From a virus: a DNA stretch of 28,598 nucleotides. Shown here piece after piece: positions 1 through 20,980 of this stretch. The notes under the pieces were generated by a model. It saw nothing but the letters and a program-made list of their open reading frames with translations. It did no database searches and had not been told where the DNA came from. The stretch spans positions 1 to 28,598 of the IMG/VR virus record IMGVR_UViG_3300047551_000816; one strand, 5' to 3'. The translations under genes and the position numbers were made by a program. Numbering within the stretch: position 1 is the stretch's first letter; every line of letters starts with the position of its first letter.

Positions 1-3000
1 TCATTAGAGGTATTAACGGCTCCACTGTTTGTTACTGCAGCACCAATAAATTCACTAATTACTGGGGATGGTTTAAAGTTTGCAGTTTGATCATTTCCTG
101 CACCATCAAAGAATCTTAAAACATATAAGTCTTGTTCCGATCTACCCAAACCAACTACTTTAAGAGTTGTTAGTCCACCAGAAGTTCCAGTTGCTGCAAT
201 TCTTCCTCTGTCAAATCTAAATGAATTTGGACTAAATCCGGTAGATCTTAGAGCATAGAATCCAAAGTTTGTTGCAGAGTTGGTAATTGAGAGATAACCA
301 CCAGACTGAGTTAAGGATCCATAACGACAGAAGATTTGGAAACAAGAAACAACCTGTGCATATCCATCATTAATTGTTCTCCAACCAATACCACCGAACG
401 AAACCATGGTAAATGTTGCAGCAACCATGGACTTACCTTGTTCTGGTTGTTCATCTAAAACAGGAATTTCAGCTTCTTGTGCAATAACTGGAATGTTTGG
501 TGATAATACTTTAGAGCCATCAACTAAAATTCCATTTCCACCTAAGAATGAAAGAATAGAACAGTTTTGGATATATGGTGATCTTGTAATAGTTGGTTTA
601 TCGGTTTTTGTTGCGTATCCGGCTCTGGAAGTTAAAGGATCGTTGGGATCATCAAATGCAACTGCATAGTCAAATGTTGATTGAGGAATACCAGCGGCAT
701 CAACCGCATCCTTCATTGCAAAACCCGTTACATAAACACCATTTCTAACCCTAAAGAGGTCTTTACCAGCATTTAGAGGTCTAATAATAGTATTTCTGAG
801 GTTATCGCCAACAACTGCAACGTCATCATAAAGAAGAATTGGGTTATCTTCAGTGTAATCACCAGCCTCAACGATAATACAAACAGGATTAGATTTTGTT
901 TGTGGTAGAGATAACGCTGGACCAGCAGCGGTGCCAAATCCAATTATAGTAGTAACAATACCCGTATAGTTAACAATAGCAGATCTTACGTCAGCACAAT
1001 CAGTTCCACCAATGCTTGTAGAAGCAATACCAACCAAACTTCCACTCAATAAAGCAGTGGTAAGAATACCAACAAGACTGTCAATAGTAGATCTTGTGTT
1101 TGCACATACATTTGGATTTTTATTAGTCGCTCCTATAGAAACATCATTTTGAATTGTAAGATCTTGGTAATTTAACCAGTTTGTGACTGCTTGTTTTGCA
1201 TAAGTTCCTAAACTTCTGAATGCATAAACGGAAGCAGTTTGTTCTCCAAGAACACCATTTGAAAGAAGTGTTCCAGCACCATTGAAATACTTCTTAGTCG
1301 CATATATTGTATGTTGGTTTGTTCCGTAGGAAACGTCTTGTGCAATCGCGTCTACAATGTATCCAAGGTCTCTTGCACATTTACGGCCGCCAACCACGGT
1401 TGTGGTTCCAATACCAACTGAACTGACTCCAATGCCAAGGGTACTAATTCCAGTAAGATTTCTTACATTATATGTAGGAGTAACAAGGAAATATCCATAG
1501 TTAGTTGTAGTTCCAATACCTGCGGTGCTTCCTGCAGCAACTACTGTAGTAACAATACCAGTAAGAGCTGAAATTGTAGATCTAACGTTTGCACATGAGT
1601 TAGGACTTGTATTAAATCCTGTGGTAGAATCGGCAGTAATAGTTAAATCTCTTGAATTTAACTGATTTGTTACTGCTGAAGACATTAAATCTCTAGCACT
1701 ACTAAAGACATAATTTGATTGTGCAGTTTCACCAACCAATCCATTTGGAATTGGAGATCCAACATTATTAAAGTAGAATCCAGCAAATCTTCTGGTGTAG
1801 TTATTACCACCAGTAAATACGTCAGTTGAAACTGCATCTACAAAGAATCCGGTGTCTCTAGCACACTTCCAAATTCCTGCAGTCGTTCCAAATCCAATCA
1901 CACTAAGATTGAAGTTTCCAAGATTTAGTGCAGGAAGTCCACTAGTATTTCCAGCACCAACTGCGGCAGTAACAACTCCAACAAGAGAAGTAATGTTATT
2001 TTGTACATCAGTACATGCTGCAGTGCTTGTAACTCCTACTGCTCCAACTTTGGTTCCTGTATAAGATGTTGGTCCACTTGAAATGCCCAGATTTTTATTT
2101 GTGAGTCTGTTTGTAATAGCATTTCTCATTTGAATTCCAGCTTGCTGGAATCCATAAATGGTTTGTTGCTCTTCACCAGCTAAACTGGTTGTTCCGACAC
2201 CAACAAAGTAGAAACCGGTAAATGCTCTTGCATAGTTGTTACCACCAGTAAATACGTCGGTTGAAACTGCGTCAACAAAATATCCAAGGTCCCTTTGACA
2301 CTTGGCAGATGACACTCCAGAAGACCAAAGAGTAGGATACTGAACATTGATTGCCGTCATTGCAGTGGCAACAATTTCAGCCTTGTTAATTTGGATCAAT
2401 CTATAAGCATCATAATATCGAGAATCCTTAGACGTAGATCCAATTCCAGGACCAGGAACATAGAATCCAGTTGGGAATCCAATGGCAAGAGAAGCCATTG
2501 ACTTATCAACGATTTCCTGTTTATTAATTGTAATTAACTTATATGAATCATAGTATCTGGACCTTGGATTAGTCTCAACTTCTCCAGGGAAGAAGAACGT
2601 TGAACCAACTCCAACTGCAACAGAAGCTAAAGACTTATCAATAATTTCTTGTCTATTTCCAACAATAAGATTTCTAGCATCTTTAGATCTATGGAAATAA
2701 TTTGTATTATTATTTTCTGGATCATCAATGATAGTGAAGTCAAATGTCTGCGAAACTGCAGTTTGGTATAAAGTTGGTGGACTTTGATTGTTAATTACGT
2801 ATTGGCCAAGGAATTTTACATAATCGATTGCAAAAGTAAATGGAACTTCTTCTCCAGTATATGTTCCAGAATTTCTAAGTACAGATCCAACATTTATGGA
2901 TTTAGAATTTCCACCAAATCTAACGTCATACGCAAGAGCATCTACAACTGAACTTATACCTGCTTTCCAAGTAGCTGCATTAAAGTCTGGGAATATTGTA

Positions 3001-5657
3001 GCAACGCCAATATTTTCATAATTAAACTGAACATAAGCAATTGATTCTTCTTTGATAAATTCTTTGTTAGCTTCTAGTAGATCTCCAGCATCCAAATATC
3101 TTTGACCCGGAATCTGAAAACTATCAAATGAAGCTAATTGAGCTGCCCTCTTAATAGTTTTAACAGGTAATGATTTACCATTGTAAGCATCATTACCATT
3201 TTGCGCTGAAACATAATATCTACTTTCAAATAGTCCAGCTCCGTTTGTACTGAATCCTAACGTGCCGTCAGGATTTAATCCCAACAATTGTCCAGCACTA
3301 CCTAACTGGTCTGGTAAAATTAATGTATAATCCGAAGCGATACCAGAATTGGAAAGTTGAATTCTTACAGTTTTATCTCGAGCACCTACAGTATTAAATC
3401 CAACAAGAGACAATGTAGCTCCAACACCAACCTCGTTAAATGTTGAAATGCCAGTATATTTTAAATTTCCACCAACGAGATTTGTAATTGTTCCAGCTGC
3501 AGCAACGAGTTTTGAAATTCCAGTAACCTCAGAAGATTCACCATCTATAGTTACAGAACCAGTGCCAATGGTCAAAATTCCGGTAATTCTAGCACTACCA
3601 TCAACAAACAAAGCCGTAGTTCCAACACCGACAGTGACTGTACCTGCTTGAGTGCCGGATCCAAATGTAGAAACTCCAGAATAATTTAAATAAGTGCCTA
3701 CAAGACTTGTAACTAATCCGGAGTTAGCCTGTAAAGTTTCTGTTGATGTTAGATCCGAAACAACTAAATCTGTTGCAAATCCAATATTTGCATAAACCTG
3801 GGAAACCCCAACTCCAGTTATTGAGAGTGTTGTGCCAATTCCAACATTAATATATGCAGTACCTATAGATACCGTTGTTGCATAAAGATCTGTAGCTATA
3901 CCAGAAGTAATATATGCATCAACGATATCAAAACTTGTTGCAAATCCAGAGTTTACGTATTGTGCATTGACATATGATGTTGTTATAAAGGCATTAGTTG
4001 CAATTGCAACGTTAACTCCTAGATTACTAAGATACGTATCAGTTGCATTTAAAGAACTTACAATTCCAGAAGTAGCAAAGAAATTATCTACTCTAGCACT
4101 AGAAATTCCTGCGGTGGTTACAATTCCAGAAGTAGCAAAGAAATTATCTACTCTAGCACTAGAAATTCCTGCAGTGGTTACGATTCCAGAAGTAGCAAAG
4201 AAATTATCTACTCTAGCGCTTGTAATTCCTGCAGTAGTTACGATTCCACTATTAATATAAGCTTGATTAATAGAAGCCGTAGAAATGCCAGCCGAAGTTA
4301 TAATACCAGCATTAATATATGCAGTACCAACATATTCTGTACCTACATTTGATGTAGTTATTACTGTTGACGTTAAAATTCCACTTGCAGCATAAAAATC
4401 ATCAACTCTTGCGCTAGTGATTCCTACAGTAGTTACGATACCCGAATTAATATAAACTTGATTAATAGAAGCCGTGGAAATTTCAGCGGAAGTTATGATA
4501 CCAGCATTAATATTTGCAGTACCAACATATTCTGTACCTACATTTGCTGTACCTACTACAGCAGAAGTTAAAATGCCAGCATTGATATTTGCCGTATCTA
4601 CATATTGTGTAGTTATATGTCCAGTTGTTATTACTGAAGAGGTTAAAATACCAGCATTAATATATGCAGTACCAACATATTCTGTACCTACATTTGATGT
4701 AGTTATTACTGTTGACGTTAAAATTCCACTTGTAACGTAAAGATTATCTACTCTAGCACTAGAAATTCCTGCAGTGGTTACGATTCCAGAAGTAGCAAAG
4801 AAATTATCTACTCTAGCACTTGTAATTCCTGCAGTGGTTATGATACCTGAATTAATATTCGCCTGATTTACAAATAAAGTTGTTACAACGCCAACATTAA
4901 CAAAATTATCACCAATATAAGCAACAGTAATTCCTGCAGTAGTTACGACTCCACTAGCAGCATAAAAATCGTTGATTGATAAACTACCAATCCCAGCAGT
5001 TGTTATTGTAGCGTTTGTTATGATACCAGTATTAACAGATAAGTCCTGAACATAGGCTGTTGTAATTCCAGCCTCAGCTATAATTGCTTGGTGTGAAAGA
5101 TTTAAGTCATATAAATTTGTTTGGCCAGCTAGTGGATCTATAAATTTGAGAGTAACCGTTTCCCCACCCTCTACCAATCCACCATGGTTACCAGATATAC
5201 CAATAACTCCTTGACCAATAGATGTAACCGTAGTGCCTGGAGTTATTAAAACGGCATTGTCATCTACCAAATAACCGACTCTAATATTATCCGTTACAAT
5301 TCCAGTGATATTCAGAAGATCTAAATTATCTAAAATTCCAGTTCTCTCAACAAAAGGATCAAAGGCAACGTCTAAACTTCTTACTATTAAATTGCCAACT
5401 ATTTTTGAATCTCCTATTGCAGCAAATGCAAGAGATCCAGTTGTAGAAGTTCCTATACCAACAAAAGTTTTATTTACAATTCCTTGTGTTACTGTCGCTC
5501 CATATCCCGTCCCAACTAGGTAATGACCTCCAAGTGTAACCCCGTCATGAACAACTAAAACATCTAAAGTAGTATCTACAGTTACTTCTCCAACAGCTCC
5601 TGTAAATGCTAAATGTTCTGAAGCTGTTCCCCTTCTAAGCTGTACCTGCTTGGTCAT
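1..5657 (-). CDS. Giant tail fibre / adhesin with Mtd-type N-terminus and split beta-helix (C-terminus outside window)
   Basis: The frame is open from the ATG at 5657-5655 to the window edge, giving 1885 codons with no stop, so the C-terminus is missing. Residues 1-50 (VQLRRGTASEHLAF, then GEVTVDT and VVHDGVTLGG) match the N-terminal domain of major tropism determinant-like phage fibres, which attaches a fibre to the tail. Residues about 170-600 are a stalk of 20-residue repeats of the type ATSGIVTTAGISSARVDNFF. Near residue 785 is YTLILPDQLGSAGQLLGL, a peptide common in phage tail proteins. Residues 812-840 (RYYVSAQNGNDAYNGK, KTIKRAAQLA) look like the cap and first turn of a pectate-lyase-type beta-helix. 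About 740 residues of RDLGY modules then intervene before the helix appears to resume at about 1590 (CIIVEAGDYTEDNPILLYDD). It is the last gene of the block, with a late promoter motif just upstream. The likely role is host attachment at the tail tip or side; the exact receptor and T4 counterpart are unknown. Confidence 0.88.
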   Translation of the reverse strand, partial: MTKQVQLRRGTASEHLAFTGAVGEVTVDTTLDVLVVHDGVTLGGHYLVGTGYGATVTQGIVNKTFVGIGTSTTGSLAFAAIGDSKIVGNLIVRSLDVAFDPFVERTGILDNLDLLNITGIVTDNIRVGYLVDDNAVLITPGTTVTSIGQGVIGISGNHGGLVEGGETVTLKFIDPLAGQTNLYDLNLSHQAIIAEAGITTAYVQDLSVNTGIITNATITTAGIGSLSINDFYAASGVVTTAGITVAYIGDNFVNVGVVTTLFVNQANINSGIITTAGITSARVDNFFATSGIVTTAGISSARVDNLYVTSGILTSTVITTSNVGTEYVGTAYINAGILTSSVITTGHITTQYVDTANINAGILTSAVVGTANVGTEYVGTANINAGIITSAEISTASINQVYINSGIVTTVGITSARVDDFYAASGILTSTVITTSNVGTEYVGTAYINAGIITSAGISTASINQAYINSGIVTTAGITSARVDNFFATSGIVTTAGISSARVDNFFATSGIVTTAGISSARVDNFFATSGIVSSLNATDTYLSNLGVNVAIATNAFITTSYVNAQYVNSGFATSFDIVDAYITSGIATDLYATTVSIGTAYINVGIGTTLSITGVGVSQVYANIGFATDLVVSDLTSTETLQANSGLVTSLVGTYLNYSGVSTFGSGTQAGTVTVGVGTTALFVDGSARITGILTIGTGSVTIDGESSEVTGISKLVAAAGTITNLVGGNLKYTGISTFNEVGVGATLSLVGFNTVGARDKTVRIQLSNSGIASDYTLILPDQLGSAGQLLGLNPDGTLGFSTNGAGLFESRYYVSAQNGNDAYNGKSLPVKTIKRAAQLASFDSFQIPGQRYLDAGDLLEANKEFIKEESIAYVQFNYENIGVATIFPDFNAATWKAGISSVVDALAYDVRFGGNSKSINVGSVLRNSGTYTGEEVPFTFAIDYVKFLGQYVINNQSPPTLYQTAVSQTFDFTIIDDPENNNTNYFHRSKDARNLIVGNRQEIIDKSLASVAVGVGSTFFFPGEVETNPRSRYYDSYKLITINKQEIVDKSMASLAIGFPTGFYVPGPGIGSTSKDSRYYDAYRLIQINKAEIVATAMTAINVQYPTLWSSGVSSAKCQRDLGYFVDAVSTDVFTGGNNYARAFTGFYFVGVGTTSLAGEEQQTIYGFQQAGIQMRNAITNRLTNKNLGISSGPTSYTGTKVGAVGVTSTAACTDVQNNITSLVGVVTAAVGAGNTSGLPALNLGNFNLSVIGFGTTAGIWKCARDTGFFVDAVSTDVFTGGNNYTRRFAGFYFNNVGSPIPNGLVGETAQSNYVFSSARDLMSSAVTNQLNSRDLTITADSTTGFNTSPNSCANVRSTISALTGIVTTVVAAGSTAGIGTTTNYGYFLVTPTYNVRNLTGISTLGIGVSSVGIGTTTVVGGRKCARDLGYIVDAIAQDVSYGTNQHTIYATKKYFNGAGTLLSNGVLGEQTASVYAFRSLGTYAKQAVTNWLNYQDLTIQNDVSIGATNKNPNVCANTRSTIDSLVGILTTALLSGSLVGIASTSIGGTDCADVRSAIVNYTGIVTTIIGFGTAAGPALSLPQTKSNPVCIIVEAGDYTEDNPILLYDDVAVVGDNLRNTIIRPLNAGKDLFRVRNGVYVTGFAMKDAVDAAGIPQSTFDYAVAFDDPNDPLTSRAGYATKTDKPTITRSPYIQNCSILSFLGGNGILVDGSKVLSPNIPVIAQEAEIPVLDEQPEQGKSMVAATFTMVSFGGIGWRTINDGYAQVVSCFQIFCRYGSLTQSGGYLSITNSATNFGFYALRSTGFSPNSFRFDRGRIAATGTSGGLTTLKVVGLGRSEQDLYVLRFFDGAGNDQTANFKPSPVISEFIGAAVTNSGAVNTSN
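900..3120 (-). repeat. RDLGY module block inserted in the beta-helix of the tail fibre gene
   Basis: This part encodes diverged repeats of about 135-170 residues. Each has a KC-x-RD-x-G-[YF] start, then [VI]DA-x4-DV, a KYFNG or FYF stretch, GL-x-GE, a segment like AVTNQL, and a second cysteine in C-x-[DN]-[VT]-[RQ] followed by a GI[VL]T helix. The KC-RD starts lie near 2300, 1865 and 1380. An earlier degenerate copy near 2930 has lost the KC-RD. The second-cysteine motifs lie near 2020, 1590, 1110 and 1000. A homologous block occurs at 25720-27270 in another gene. Boundaries are approximate. Confidence 0.75.
3960..4860 (-). repeat. 60-bp tandem repeats encoding a 20-residue stalk unit
   Basis: Units with a 60-bp period encode ATSGIVTTAGISSARVDNFF and variants. 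Near-identical copies lie at about 4057-4116, 4117-4176 and 4177-4236, and again from about 4741 to 4860. Between them the same register continues with diverged units (for example INAGIITSAGISTASINQAY). A longer segment containing VGTEYVGTAYINAGI recurs near 4330, 4530 and 4680. The copies keep the reading frame and differ mainly at third positions. They probably form a rod or solenoid between the attachment domain and the distal domains. Confidence 0.9.
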
Positions 5658-5705: not shown

Positions 5706-8700
5706 TTAAATGATAACAACATAAGTTCTTGGAATCTGGAAAGGATTATTATTAGTGGATCCAAAGACTTCCTGAATATAAATTGTTCCAACTCCAATAT
5801 AAGTAGATTTTGTAAATGATTCTAGACCAGAAGAGAATCCAAATAGATTTCCATCAGTTTCATCATATGTCTTGATAAGAGAATTGTTGGAAGATCCAAG
5901 AACATTAATCGTTCCAGAACCATCTGGTGATGGAATGTAAATAACATCTGAATAAACGAGTTCACCAGAAAGAGTTATAGTTCCAGAACCTATTTGCGTA
6001 TAAGTTGCAATTTCAGAAGTTACTGCAGATCCACTTAATGCAAACAATCCAATACCAACGACTGGATAATCAACTTCTACAGACGTTACAGCAGATCCGG
6101 AAATTTGGAATAGTTGTGTATTTTCTGGAGTTTGTGAAGAGTACGACTCAGATGCACCAGATATTACAAATATATTTCCAGATCCAACATAAACATTTCT
6201 TTCACTTTCCGAAGAGATTTCTGTAATGAATATTGTGCCAATACCAGATTGCGAATAACTAAATTTAAGATCTTGATATGATCCAGATAGAGTAAACAGG
6301 CCATCTGCAACTTCTGTGTATAAGGCGGTTTCAACTGCAAGGGCACTTCCATCAATATTAAATAGAACTGTATTTTCTGGTGGATTTGCAGTGAAACTTA
6401 CATTTGCCGAATCCTGTTCGTCCGATGTAATATCTTCGGAATCGCAAGTATCATAAAGATTATCAACATGATGTGTATTTGCAAATCTAATAGTTCCACT
6501 TGCTGGATAATTTGGAACATAGAATGTATTGGATGATCCATTAAGAGTAACAGATCCAGATGCATCATAACTATGAGTAATAGATTCTTCAATAAATCCA
6601 TTAATAATATAAAGAACTTCAGTTTCTGGTGTTTGTGCAGAATATACCTCAAGACATGATCCAAAGATGTTAAAGAGTTGTGTATCTTCTGGAGTTTGAG
6701 CTGCAAAGGATTCCAGAGCAGTTCCAGACAATGTACCAGTACCAAATCCAACGTAAGATTCGGTATTTCTTTCAATTATGGTTTCGGAAACAAATATAGT
6801 TCCAATTCCAAGATAAACCTCAGTATTTTTCTCAATAGTTGAAACTTGTTGTGATAAGAATATTGTTCCAGAAGTTCCGGGATTATTATCATCTCCATAA
6901 TAACCATATACATTAATTTCTCTTGTCGATGCAATTCCAGATAGTGTAATTATTCCCGATCCATCATAATTTGATTTACTGAAAGATTCGTTTCCACTAC
7001 CAATTACGTAAATAGATCCTTGGCCAGGATAACGAGGAACTTTAAGTGTTCTTGCCTTCGATGAGAACCTTATAGTCCCTATACCAGAACCTTGGTTAAA
7101 GTCTCCAATTAGGAATCCATATCTGTTAGAATATGTCTTAGCATCACGAGGATTGCCATCTCCATCTGGGAAAGTTCCAACTCCAACTCTGAATTGAATT
7201 CCTGTTGTACCAATACCAATATTTTTCTCAATACCATAATGAGGAGTATAATCGATATTTGGATGTACAAGTTCTCCGTAAATATTAAAGAGTTGGGTAT
7301 TTTCCGGAGTATCTGCCGTGAACGATTCTAGAGCGGTTCCAGAAAGTGTTACAGTACCTAAACCAACATAAGATTCCGTATTTTGTTCTATTCCGAATCC
7401 AGAAATAATAAAGAGTTGTGTATCTTCTGGAGTATCTGCCGTGAAGGATTCTACGGCAGCTCCAGAGAAGTTATAGAGAACAGTATCTTCCGGAGTTTGT
7501 GCAGAGAACGACTCTAGAGCGGTTCCGGAGAAGCTATAGAGAATAGTATCTTCAGGAGTTTGTGCAGAGAACGACTCTAGAGCGGTTCCAGAAAGTGTTA
7601 CAGTACCTAAACCAACATAAGATTCGGTATTCTTCTCTATTAAAGTTCCAGAAATAATAAAGAGTTGTGTATCTTCTGGAGTATCTGCAGTGAAGGATTC
7701 TATAGAAGTTCCGGAGAAACTATAAAGAACAGTATCTTCAGGAGTTTGTGCAGAGAACGACTCTAGAGCAGTTCCGGAGAAGCTATAGAGAATAGTATCC
7801 TCAGGAGTTTGTGCAGAGAACGACTCTAGAGCGGTTCCAGAGAATATAGCAATACCAACTCCAACATAAGATTCGGTATTCTTCTCTATTAAAGTTCCGG
7901 AAATAATAAAGAGTTGCGTATCTTCTGGAGTATCTGCCGTGAAGGATTCTATAGAAGTTCCAGAAATTAAAATATTTCCAGATGAAATATAGTTGCCTTT
8001 TGTAAAACTCCAAGATCTTCCAACACCAGGTTCTGGTAACCATGGATAAGATTCTTTAGGACTGAATCCATTGACAATATTAATAGAACCAAATGGACAG
8101 TTAATCGTTAACTCATCTATTATCCATCCAAAATTATCAGGAATATTGCCAGTCTCTTCCTCGGATACTAACCCATAATCAAAGAAATCAGTATTAGGTA
8201 AAGTTATTGGAACTATAGGTGTTCCAGTTAACAATCCAAAATCAAGAGATTCTGCAATTGAATTATAACATGGGGTGTCTTCATTATATGAGAATACAAA
8301 TCTTTCTGGGAATACTCCAGATCTAAACTGAATGCCTGTAGTTCCAACTCCAATATTTTCATCAATACCATAATGAGGTGTATAATCAATATTTGGATGT
8401 GTAAGCTCCCCAGAGAAGTTATAAAGAATAGTATCATCTGGAGTGTTAGCGGAGAAAGACTCTAGGGCTGTTCCAGAGAAGTTGTAGAGGATAGTATTGT
8501 CTGGAGTATCTGCAGTGAAGCTTAAAGGTACAGCACTACTTACAAAGGTTACTTGTCCGAATGGAAGTAATGGATATATGGTTGGTACATTTGATATTGA
8601 TCCAAAATCATCATATGGGAAATGTCCGGGATCTTGCTGAGTTATGAATCCAAGATTATCTCCTCCAGTAACATAAGAAGATATGCTTCCCCAATCTAGA

Positions 8701-9443
8701 ACTGGATCATAAATTGAACTTAGATTATATGCCTTCGTTGCACTTTCTAATGCTGAAATTCCACCAATATCACAAGTAATTTCGCTATCGCACGTATCAT
8801 AATCATTATCTGTTCTGGTGCCAAAGGCACCTGGACGGACTCGCAGTGTACCAGAAGCAATATATGGTTTGACAGTCCTTTCTAAACCACTTCCTATTTC
8901 AAATACCGTTCCACTACCCACCCAAGTCTTAACAAGTGACTTTAAGGCGTTGCCAGTAATCGGTAAAGTTGTTTGTGGCGCTGTATAATGGAAAGTAACT
9001 GCTTCGCCACTTAGACTACCACTACTACTAATATTTCCAAATGCAGTTAATGTAGAATTAATGTAAATATATCCAAAGTCTTCACTTTGTCTAGAATCAA
9101 AGGTATCTGAAGAAGAATGAAATACATCATATTGAGAAACTCCATAACCGGGATCTATATTATTAAAAGAAGAAAACTCAATACTAGAACTATCATAATT
9201 TGGCGCGGAATCCCAAGTTTTTAGTGCTGATGAAAATTCGGTAGGTGCTCCCGAAGTACTTCCATCTGGAGGGGGTAGTAAATAATTATATGTACTATAA
9301 TCCGGTATGGTTTGAGGTTCTAATGAGCTCGCACCCCAATCTAATACAGGTTCATCAACAGGAGAAGAAATACTGCCATAATCTCCTGTAGAATAAACAT
9401 TTGTACTTATGTCTGGATTTGAATTATATACATAAATGCTCAT
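5706..9443 (-). CDS. Repetitive fibre-like virion protein, 1245 residues
   Basis: No enzymatic family is recognised. The whole protein is short beta-prone repeats, low in lysine and rich in Ser, Gly, Thr and acidic residues. The N-terminal third repeats D-[FYW]-G-x-[IL] elements (DYGSI, LDWGSI, DDFGSI, LDFGLL). From about residue 300 two 20-21-residue units alternate: SGTALESFSAQTPEDTILYSF-type (about 14 TPEDT-like copies in all) and Y-x-G-x-GT-[IV]-x-LSG-type. Residues 493-719 are organised as a 249-bp higher-order repeat. A YDTCDSE motif occurs twice, near residues 214 and 997. The ATG at 9443 is preceded by only a weak GAGATTAG purine stretch. The gene lies between a terminator and the giant fibre gene, so a role as a tail fibre or surface decoration is inferred from repeats and position. 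It may be trimeric, but no trimerisation domain is recognisable. Confidence 0.85.
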   Translation of the reverse strand: MSIYVYNSNPDISTNVYSTGDYGSISSPVDEPVLDWGASSLEPQTIPDYSTYNYLLPPPDGSTSGAPTEFSSALKTWDSAPNYDSSSIEFSSFNNIDPGYGVSQYDVFHSSSDTFDSRQSEDFGYIYINSTLTAFGNISSSGSLSGEAVTFHYTAPQTTLPITGNALKSLVKTWVGSGTVFEIGSGLERTVKPYIASGTLRVRPGAFGTRTDNDYDTCDSEITCDIGGISALESATKAYNLSSIYDPVLDWGSISSYVTGGDNLGFITQQDPGHFPYDDFGSISNVPTIYPLLPFGQVTFVSSAVPLSFTADTPDNTILYNFSGTALESFSANTPDDTILYNFSGELTHPNIDYTPHYGIDENIGVGTTGIQFRSGVFPERFVFSYNEDTPCYNSIAESLDFGLLTGTPIVPITLPNTDFFDYGLVSEEETGNIPDNFGWIIDELTINCPFGSINIVNGFSPKESYPWLPEPGVGRSWSFTKGNYISSGNILISGTSIESFTADTPEDTQLFIISGTLIEKNTESYVGVGIAIFSGTALESFSAQTPEDTILYSFSGTALESFSAQTPEDTVLYSFSGTSIESFTADTPEDTQLFIISGTLIEKNTESYVGLGTVTLSGTALESFSAQTPEDTILYSFSGTALESFSAQTPEDTVLYNFSGAAVESFTADTPEDTQLFIISGFGIEQNTESYVGLGTVTLSGTALESFTADTPENTQLFNIYGELVHPNIDYTPHYGIEKNIGIGTTGIQFRVGVGTFPDGDGNPRDAKTYSNRYGFLIGDFNQGSGIGTIRFSSKARTLKVPRYPGQGSIYVIGSGNESFSKSNYDGSGIITLSGIASTREINVYGYYGDDNNPGTSGTIFLSQQVSTIEKNTEVYLGIGTIFVSETIIERNTESYVGFGTGTLSGTALESFAAQTPEDTQLFNIFGSCLEVYSAQTPETEVLYIINGFIEESITHSYDASGSVTLNGSSNTFYVPNYPASGTIRFANTHHVDNLYDTCDSEDITSDEQDSANVSFTANPPENTVLFNIDGSALAVETALYTEVADGLFTLSGSYQDLKFSYSQSGIGTIFITEISSESERNVYVGSGNIFVISGASESYSSQTPENTQLFQISGSAVTSVEVDYPVVGIGLFALSGSAVTSEIATYTQIGSGTITLSGELVYSDVIYIPSPDGSGTINVLGSSNNSLIKTYDETDGNLFGFSSGLESFTKSTYIGVGTIYIQEVFGSTNNNPFQIPRTYVVII
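7285..7965 (-). repeat. 249-bp higher-order tandem repeat (about 2.7 copies)
   Basis: The landmark tatcttctgg on the plus strand recurs at 7421, 7670 and 7919, and tcaggagttt at 7552 and 7801; every spacing is exactly 249 bp (83 codons). Each copy encodes four subunits of 21, 20, 21 and 21 residues: SIESFTADTPEDTQLF, LIEKNTESYVG, and two ALESFSAQTPEDT units. Related single units lie outside the array near 6700 and 8450. The exact period and high identity suggest recent duplication. Confidence 0.92.
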
Positions 9444-19384: not shown

Positions 19385-20980
19385 TTAGAACTCCAGTATA
19401 ACTTTAATGTCTTCCTTTTGGTTTGCTGATCTCGGAATTGGCGCCCTGTTATCTATGTATATTATTTCTCCGGATTTTACGTTATATTCTGCAGAAGAAA
19501 TTCCGGAAACAAAATTCAAACCCAACTGATATATTCTATTATTTATTGTGGTAGTAATACCATTAAATCCCGTGTCTATGGATAAAGCGGGTCCAATGAT
19601 AGAACTGCAATTGATCGTTACTCCATATCCAGAAACTGGAGTTGACGTAAAAGGAGTTATTTTAAAACCAGATTCACTTGAGGCTAATCCAGTTGGTTGA
19701 TAATATTTCAATACTCCAGTAATAGGATCCCAGGAAGCTACATATCCAACAGCTGTTGATCCTAATCCAACTGTCTGTTTAATAACAGAATCCACTGCAT
19801 ATGTAGTATTTGTTGTAACCCCTGCCAATTTTAATGCTTTAAGTCCACTTGCTAAGGAAGTATTTAAAAGTTCAACATTACTATTAAGAACAGTAGGATT
19901 TCTAATTATTCCAACTCTAGCAAAATCATTTCCTATGATAATATCTGGATTTGAATCCAAAGTTTCATATCTAGAATATAAAAGAACTCTATATGCACCC
20001 AATTCTCTATAAACATCATATCCATGTCCACCTTTAGGTGGAATAACTACATTAAAACTTGCTTTTGATGTAGTTCCAATACCAGTATTACTTAATTTAC
20101 TCAAAGGTCCATTTAATTCACTTCCTGGAGCCCCAGGATAAAATTCTACAGTACCATAAGTATAATCCGTACCTCCTTCGGTTACAAAAATTTCAGAAAC
20201 TTTTCCAAAAGAATCGATAGTAATAGTTGCTTTGCCATCTTTACCATCACCCAATATTGGGACATTGGAAAATGAAGTTGAAATTGGTTGATAATTACTT
20301 CCTCTATTATTAACTAAAATAACTTCAATTTTTCCATCAATAGCATTGTTTTTAGTAGCGACTGTTTCTCCGGTAACTCCCCAATCTTCAGGAACTGGTA
20401 TGTATTCAATAGAATCGAACTTTATTATCTCTGCAGGTTTTATTGTATAAAGATATTTCCATAAATATCCATCACCACTAGACCCTGCGGTTCTTGGTTC
20501 AAGATCAATGAAAGTTGGTTGATCATAAGAAGGCCTGCCCTTTGGATTTTCGGGATCAGTTCCATTTTGTAAACAAATATAAACTCTAAGATCCTCATTG
20601 ACAACATAATAATTTGCTTCATACAAACTTGTATTACCTGTAACGGGAGTGGGATTGTACACACTATAATCATGTCTATACATCTCGTAGGTATTACCAC
20701 TAACCCATTGAACCTTTCTTACTAGTCTTCTCACATCTTGACTAGTAATTTGTTTCATCGCAATGATACTTTCTTTTATCTGATACTCTTCTTTAAACCC
20801 ATCTAGTGGTGAAGGAGTATTATTTAACCAAATTGGAGATCCTCCAGATTGAACACTGGTTGAATTTGGCAATCCAATAAAAGTATAATACTTATTAGTA
20901 GTATCTCCGACACCAGAAACACTTTTTACAAAGTTTTCTGCGTTTAAAATCCTAAATTGATCAGATATGATGGCAGGCAT
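19385..20980 (-). CDS. 8: Baseplate wedge subunit gp8
   Basis: The ends match T4 gp8. Residues 169-180 read GDGYLWKYLYTI, followed by EYIPVPEDW, where T4 gp8 has GDGYVWEYLFEI and EYIVVPWPEEL. The C-terminus SGEIIYIDNRAPIP, then QKEDIKVILEF, corresponds to SGEMIYMENRPPII, then QTEEINILFTF in T4. The residue 95-165 region (YRHDYSVYNP, YVVNEDLRVYICL) fits the same domain. In T4, gp8 forms a dimer in each of six baseplate wedges. At 531 residues this protein is about 200 longer than T4 gp8 (334). The excess lies between residues 200 and 500 and includes G-x-D-Y and VEFYPGAPG beta motifs shared with neighbouring giants. The gene lies between a giant gp7-position gene and the DUF4815 gene, consistent with T4 order 7-8. 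Confidence 0.93.
   Translation of the reverse strand: MPAIISDQFRILNAENFVKSVSGVGDTTNKYYTFIGLPNSTSVQSGGSPIWLNNTPSPLDGFKEEYQIKESIIAMKQITSQDVRRLVRKVQWVSGNTYEMYRHDYSVYNPTPVTGNTSLYEANYYVVNEDLRVYICLQNGTDPENPKGRPSYDQPTFIDLEPRTAGSSGDGYLWKYLYTIKPAEIIKFDSIEYIPVPEDWGVTGETVATKNNAIDGKIEVILVNNRGSNYQPISTSFSNVPILGDGKDGKATITIDSFGKVSEIFVTEGGTDYTYGTVEFYPGAPGSELNGPLSKLSNTGIGTTSKASFNVVIPPKGGHGYDVYRELGAYRVLLYSRYETLDSNPDIIIGNDFARVGIIRNPTVLNSNVELLNTSLASGLKALKLAGVTTNTTYAVDSVIKQTVGLGSTAVGYVASWDPITGVLKYYQPTGLASSESGFKITPFTSTPVSGYGVTINCSSIIGPALSIDTGFNGITTTINNRIYQLGLNFVSGISSAEYNVKSGEIIYIDNRAPIPRSANQKEDIKVILEF

Follow-up and report, generated by a model that had tools for sequence, protein, structure and literature searches.

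The Locus and Its Tail Module

The window analysed here, by which we mean the whole stretch of 28,598 bases of one IMG/VR virus record, is probably an environmental sequence, and its source virus is a relative of the marine cyanobacterial phages. Judged by its genes, it holds a T4-like tail module of the Kyanoviridae type, in which a gene for a protein of 1245 residues has a baseplate block on one side and a second fibre gene on the other (Table 1). The order runs from a large baseplate-type protein through gp8, a DUF4815 protein, a small virion protein, an LtfC-like protein, a virion protein, and a 335-residue protein to the 1245-residue protein and the second fibre protein, and it matches that of the Synechococcus phages S-SCSM2R and S-SSM7 and, in part, that of Sf-FS3 and S-CAM3. 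In the cultured Synechococcus phages, the DUF4815 protein (which follows gp8 in S-SCSM2R), a small protein, an LtfC-like protein, and a virion protein are followed by a 1008-bp gene, then by the homologue of our gene (SSCSM2R_111 in S-SCSM2R, SSSM7_110 in S-SSM7, and SfFS3_93 in Sf-FS3, in the Kyanoviridae-type module with PHROG 11522), and then by fibre or tropism-determinant-like genes. The 1245-residue gene of the window stands in this same order, after a 1008-bp gene and ahead of the fibre genes, as expected for a protein of the SSSM7_110 type.

The relationship is also seen in the protein itself, which matched the PHROG 11522 profile in four stretches (E = 1.3e-38) and S-SSM7 by tblastn (2e-35, 87% of the query covered), with 28–37% identity to its protein relatives in cultured phages; a Pfam search of the protein returned no domain. 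Its homologues in S-SCSM2R, S-SSM7, and Sf-FS3 are annotated just as hypothetical or “TolB” and, unlike the gene of the window, are without a near-identical internal repeat. From the gene context and the repeat architecture, we take the protein to be fibre-like and presumably located in the virion, and its place in the tail module agrees with the preliminary description, which had already called the gene fibre-like.

Table 1. Features of the window that bear on the repeat array (positions in the window; aa, residues of the 1245-residue protein).
Feature	Position	Strand	Remarks
Repeat-bearing gene, predicted fibre-like virion protein	5706..9443	-	1245 aa; relative of S-SSM7 SSSM7_110 and S-SCSM2R SSCSM2R_111; PHROG 11522
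N-terminal part of the protein	7965..9443	-	aa 1-493; sequence and length variable among relatives
Whole array	7281..7964	-	aa 494-721; 11 units, ABAA-ABAA-ABA (A = 21 aa, B = 20 aa)
Higher-order copy 1	7716..7964	-	249 bp, 83 aa; aa 494-576
Higher-order copy 2	7467..7715	-	249 bp; 92.4% nt identical to copy 1
Higher-order copy 3, partial	7281..7466	-	186 bp, 62 aa, ABA; 83% to copy 2, 78% to copy 1
C-terminal part of the protein	5706..7280	-	aa 722-1245; conserved in sequence (mean 60% identity), near-constant in length among relatives
Second tail-fibre-like gene	3..5657	-	Truncated by contig edge; own in-frame tandem arrays at 4058-4728
Baseplate wedge gp8	19385..20980	-	Pfam Phage-Gp8, PHROG 438; context

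Architecture of the Repeat Array

When the gene was compared with itself at all lags from 3 to 899, the strongest self-match was found at 249 bp, and Tandem Repeats Finder (TRF) gave the same period (249 bp x 2.7 copies, 7297-7964, score 1063). The array is made of A-type units such as SGTALESFSAQTPEDTILYSF and B-type units such as SGTLIEKNTESYVGLGTVTL, with lengths along the array of 21, 20, 21, 21 / 21, 20, 21, 21 / 21, 20, 21 residues. The best 90-nt self-match at lag 249 reached 97.8%, compared with at most 58.9% in 100 codon-shuffled versions of the gene, and therefore the repeat is not due to chance. Copies 1 and 2 are 92.4% identical (19 of 249 nt differ), copies 2 and 3 are 83.3% identical, and copies 1 and 3 are 78.0% identical, with a longest exact run of 50 bp at lag 249.

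The preliminary description had placed at 7285-7965 an exact, near-identical repeat with landmarks every 249 bp and subunits of 21, 20, 21, and 21 residues. The period and the subunits, which sum to 83 residues, were borne out, and resolving the units moves the limits to 7281-7964. “Exact” thus holds for the spacing but not for the sequence, and “near identity” was an overstatement for copies that share 92%, 83%, or 78% of their DNA.

As for the fold, the AlphaFold2 models were poor (mean pLDDT of 49 for the array and 32 for the C-terminal part) and were rejected as fold assignments, although the low-confidence monomer model of the array contained regular beta strands, two per unit and one per half. 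A Foldseek comparison of the array model with the PDB gave a best E of 0.76, rejected as a fold match, and a sequence search of solved structures with the protein gave no credible match. Because the models are poor and no fold match was significant, we treat the shaft fold considered below as putative.

Descent and Age of the Copies

Copies 1 and 2 descend from a duplication of DNA and do not just repeat a peptide, given that they differ at only 9 synonymous codons, while 1000 reshuffles of synonymous codons with the protein fixed gave a mean of 41.6 and a minimum of 27. Their dN of 0.036 and dS of 0.234 give a ratio of about 0.15, indicative of purifying selection; these dN and dS values, as well as those that follow, are NG86 estimates on 46–62 synonymous sites that ignore gene conversion. 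The dS was 0.37 between copies 2 and 3 and 0.55 between copies 1 and 3, and it was 0.46 when the C-terminal part was compared with that of L003, the nearest ortholog found. Copies 1 and 2, with their lower dS, thus probably arose after the split from L003, yet well before the present, and the third copy is about as old as that split. The recent amplification that had been proposed is therefore right in relative terms for copies 1 and 2, which are younger than the nearest-ortholog split, but a very recent amplification is not supported, since the distances of the third copy are comparable with that split.

Repeats in the Related Phages

We fetched 77 related loci and compared the repeat lags in about 70 relatives, where all the internal repeat lags of the homologous genes were multiples of 3, so that the claim of a preserved reading frame extends to the relatives compared. 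Near-identical repeats (at least 90% identity), surveyed in 33 representative IMG/VR loci, were present in 17 of the 33 focal genes, in 4 downstream regions, and in none of the 33 upstream regions; within the window, repeats of this kind occur in no genes other than the two fibre genes (645 and 718 bp). Other higher-order periods were found, of 303 bp (L046, L051, L067, and L069), 309 or 369 bp (the L022 group), and 186 bp (L012), and the relatives hold in-frame repeats that differ in copy number or order. The unit orders of three relatives, read by eye from the translations, were B A B A A B, a 51-residue insert, and A A A A A B in L003; A A A A A' B A in L004; and B A A A A A B A B in L006. 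The tandem ABAA block is absent from all three, which makes it lineage-specific to the extent covered here. The insert that breaks the L003 array is non-repeat sequence (DVGIFSVPLTTDDDD...).

Seven of the eight A-units of the array have their best DNA match in their own gene, with the eighth tying with L012, while the unit outside the array at residue 927 matches the orthologs better than its own array (0.87 vs. 0.65), which means that concerted evolution has taken place in the array only. Several A-units of the window are closer to L012, a more distant relative, than to L003, the nearest ortholog, and these matches hint that units may be exchanged between lineages.

The C-terminal part has a mean identity of 60% among the relatives, rising to 77–88% at the very end, and a length of 486–560 residues, and the parts ahead of it vary greatly. 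A variable repeat chain before a conserved end would be more in keeping with a shaft or spacer than with a variable tip for receptor binding. In L019 (6000-6753 and 6716-10283), L038, L040, and L063, the gene appears to be divided between two frames close to its N-terminal part, through a frameshift, a real split, or an assembly error.

Tempo of Length Change

The length of the protein does change between lineages, since relatives at about 79–90% protein identity differ by indels of 20, 21, 41, 81, and 82 residues, mostly whole-unit multiples and mainly of one, two, or four units. In pairs of at least about 92.5% amino acid identity, no unit indel was found, and neither was any difference in unit number within the clusters whose units are 100% identical (7 contigs around L012 and 5 around L022); because the samples behind these contigs may be related, and polymorphism can go unseen in short-read assemblies, this test is suggestive and not final. 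No copy-number difference was found in the strain pairs compared, so the process was not caught in action, and an exact 23-mer search of viral contigs for the phage's own population returned no other contig. Among cultured isolates, the gene length is constant in S-CAM1 (6 records) and S-CAM3 (4 records), with little or no high-identity array, which makes them a weak test.

The proposal that recombination between copies would add or remove 83 residues in frame was thus supported for whole units between lineages (20, 21, 41, and 81 residues) but not for the 83-residue step, found in none of the relatives compared. As for the copy counts suggested for related genomes, order and unit number vary among lineages, and unit number is constant at or above about 92.5% identity, so that the length variation expected at the population level was not supported. 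Taken together, these comparisons suggest that the relatives rearrange similar repeats with a slow turnover, and they give no support to fast length switching.

Origin of the Array

We consider it probable that the array arose by a lineage-specific, in-frame duplication of the ABAA block within the repeats of a fibre shaft, with slow turnover and no rapid switch within the population. The middle of a long fibre-like tail protein would be a chain of 20–21-residue units of types A and B, probably two-stranded beta, set between the N-terminal part and the strongly conserved C-terminal part. Recombination or template switching at similar units would have duplicated the four-unit A-B-A-A block of 249 bp in frame in this phage's lineage, probably in two or more steps, and purifying selection, along with some homogenisation, would have accompanied the later divergence of the units. 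The likely outcome would be a shaft length or valency that changes between lineages, not a rapid switch within a population, and adsorption may conceivably be affected. Some indels in the relatives (71, 50, and 26 residues) are not whole-unit multiples and count against this explanation. That replication template switching or slippage, instead of homologous recombination, made the duplication is a possible, if tentative, variant: exact stretches of 29–50 bp are common to the units, enough for misalignment, and the two routes are indistinguishable here, since both yield in-frame whole-unit changes. More doubtful is a wider reading in which the whole family is a modular fibre shaft with interchangeable A and B units reshuffled among cyanophage lineages, exchange between genomes included; if true, such reshuffling would make shaft length or valency an evolvable trait.

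The other explanations differ in tempo, in cause, or in the trust placed in the contig. A fast, contingency-type variation, in which near-identical copies recombine often and add or remove 83 residues within one population to tune the host interaction, could draw on the exact runs of 41–50 bp at lag 249, sufficient for homologous recombination, and on the in-frame fibre duplications that appear within days in phage EfV12-phi1 (PMC6365445); we regard it as unlikely, however, given that the copies are already 8–22% apart in DNA, that the 83-residue indel was not observed, and that close relatives keep their unit number even with perfectly identical units. An assembly artefact, with an array collapsed or chimeric in a metagenomic contig and a wrong copy number, seems more improbable still: short-read assemblers often collapse tandem repeats and the contig is probably environmental, but the longest exact run is below ordinary read length and the copies differ by 19–41 nt, so the displayed copies are resolvable, even if one more perfect copy could be hidden. 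Least credible of all is selection on the fold alone, by which structural constraint would keep the peptide repeats alike without any recent DNA duplication; similar units of 20–21 residues do make up much of the length of this family, but the relatives differ in unit order, and the synonymous-codon reshuffling (9 vs. a minimum of 27) rules out, for copies 1 and 2, a constraint on the protein alone.

Comparison with Other Phage Fibres

In the Enterococcus phage EfV12-phi1, tandem duplications of 1.8 kb in the tail-fibre gene arise within days of coevolution and vary within the population (PMC6365445). The window shares with it the in-frame tandem duplication of a segment within a long fibre gene, but its segment measures 249 bp, has diverged, and seems to be stable among strains. 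The Xanthomonas phages OP1, Xp10, and Xop411 have shuffled duplications of an N-terminal tail-fibre domain that are linked to host range (PMC2248197), and domain duplications of T4 gp37 are cited in that same paper (Tetart et al. 1996). As in the window, small modules are duplicated there, and their order differs among related phages; nevertheless, these are different proteins, their homology with that of the window is not shown, and the link to host range was made for them. Our literature search found no direct precedent for tandem repeats in cyanophage fibres, and we see in the window a well-documented case of a route by which phage fibres are already known to evolve, not something new.

Its value lies in being a natural, sequence-dated duplication of whole units in a fibre-like cyanophage gene that is otherwise uncharacterised, and a rough time scale of turnover can be read from it, with arrays that are stable when identity within a lineage exceeds about 92.5% and rearranged at about 79–90%. 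This time scale sets the evolutionary remodelling of the shaft apart from rapid switching of the phase-variation type.

Additional Repeats in the Two Fibre Genes

The arrays of the second fibre gene, all in frame, have periods of 60 bp (3.2 copies, 95% match), 195 bp (2 copies), and 75 bp (3.2 copies). The 1245-residue gene has an older second duplication as well, 7180-7343 vs. 8314-8477, of 164 nt and 76% identity, 1134 bp apart, with the motif HPNIDYTPHYGI. A cysteine motif (DNxYDTCDSE...), partly conserved in the relatives, also occurs twice in its protein, at roughly residues 210-225 and 993-1005, far apart.
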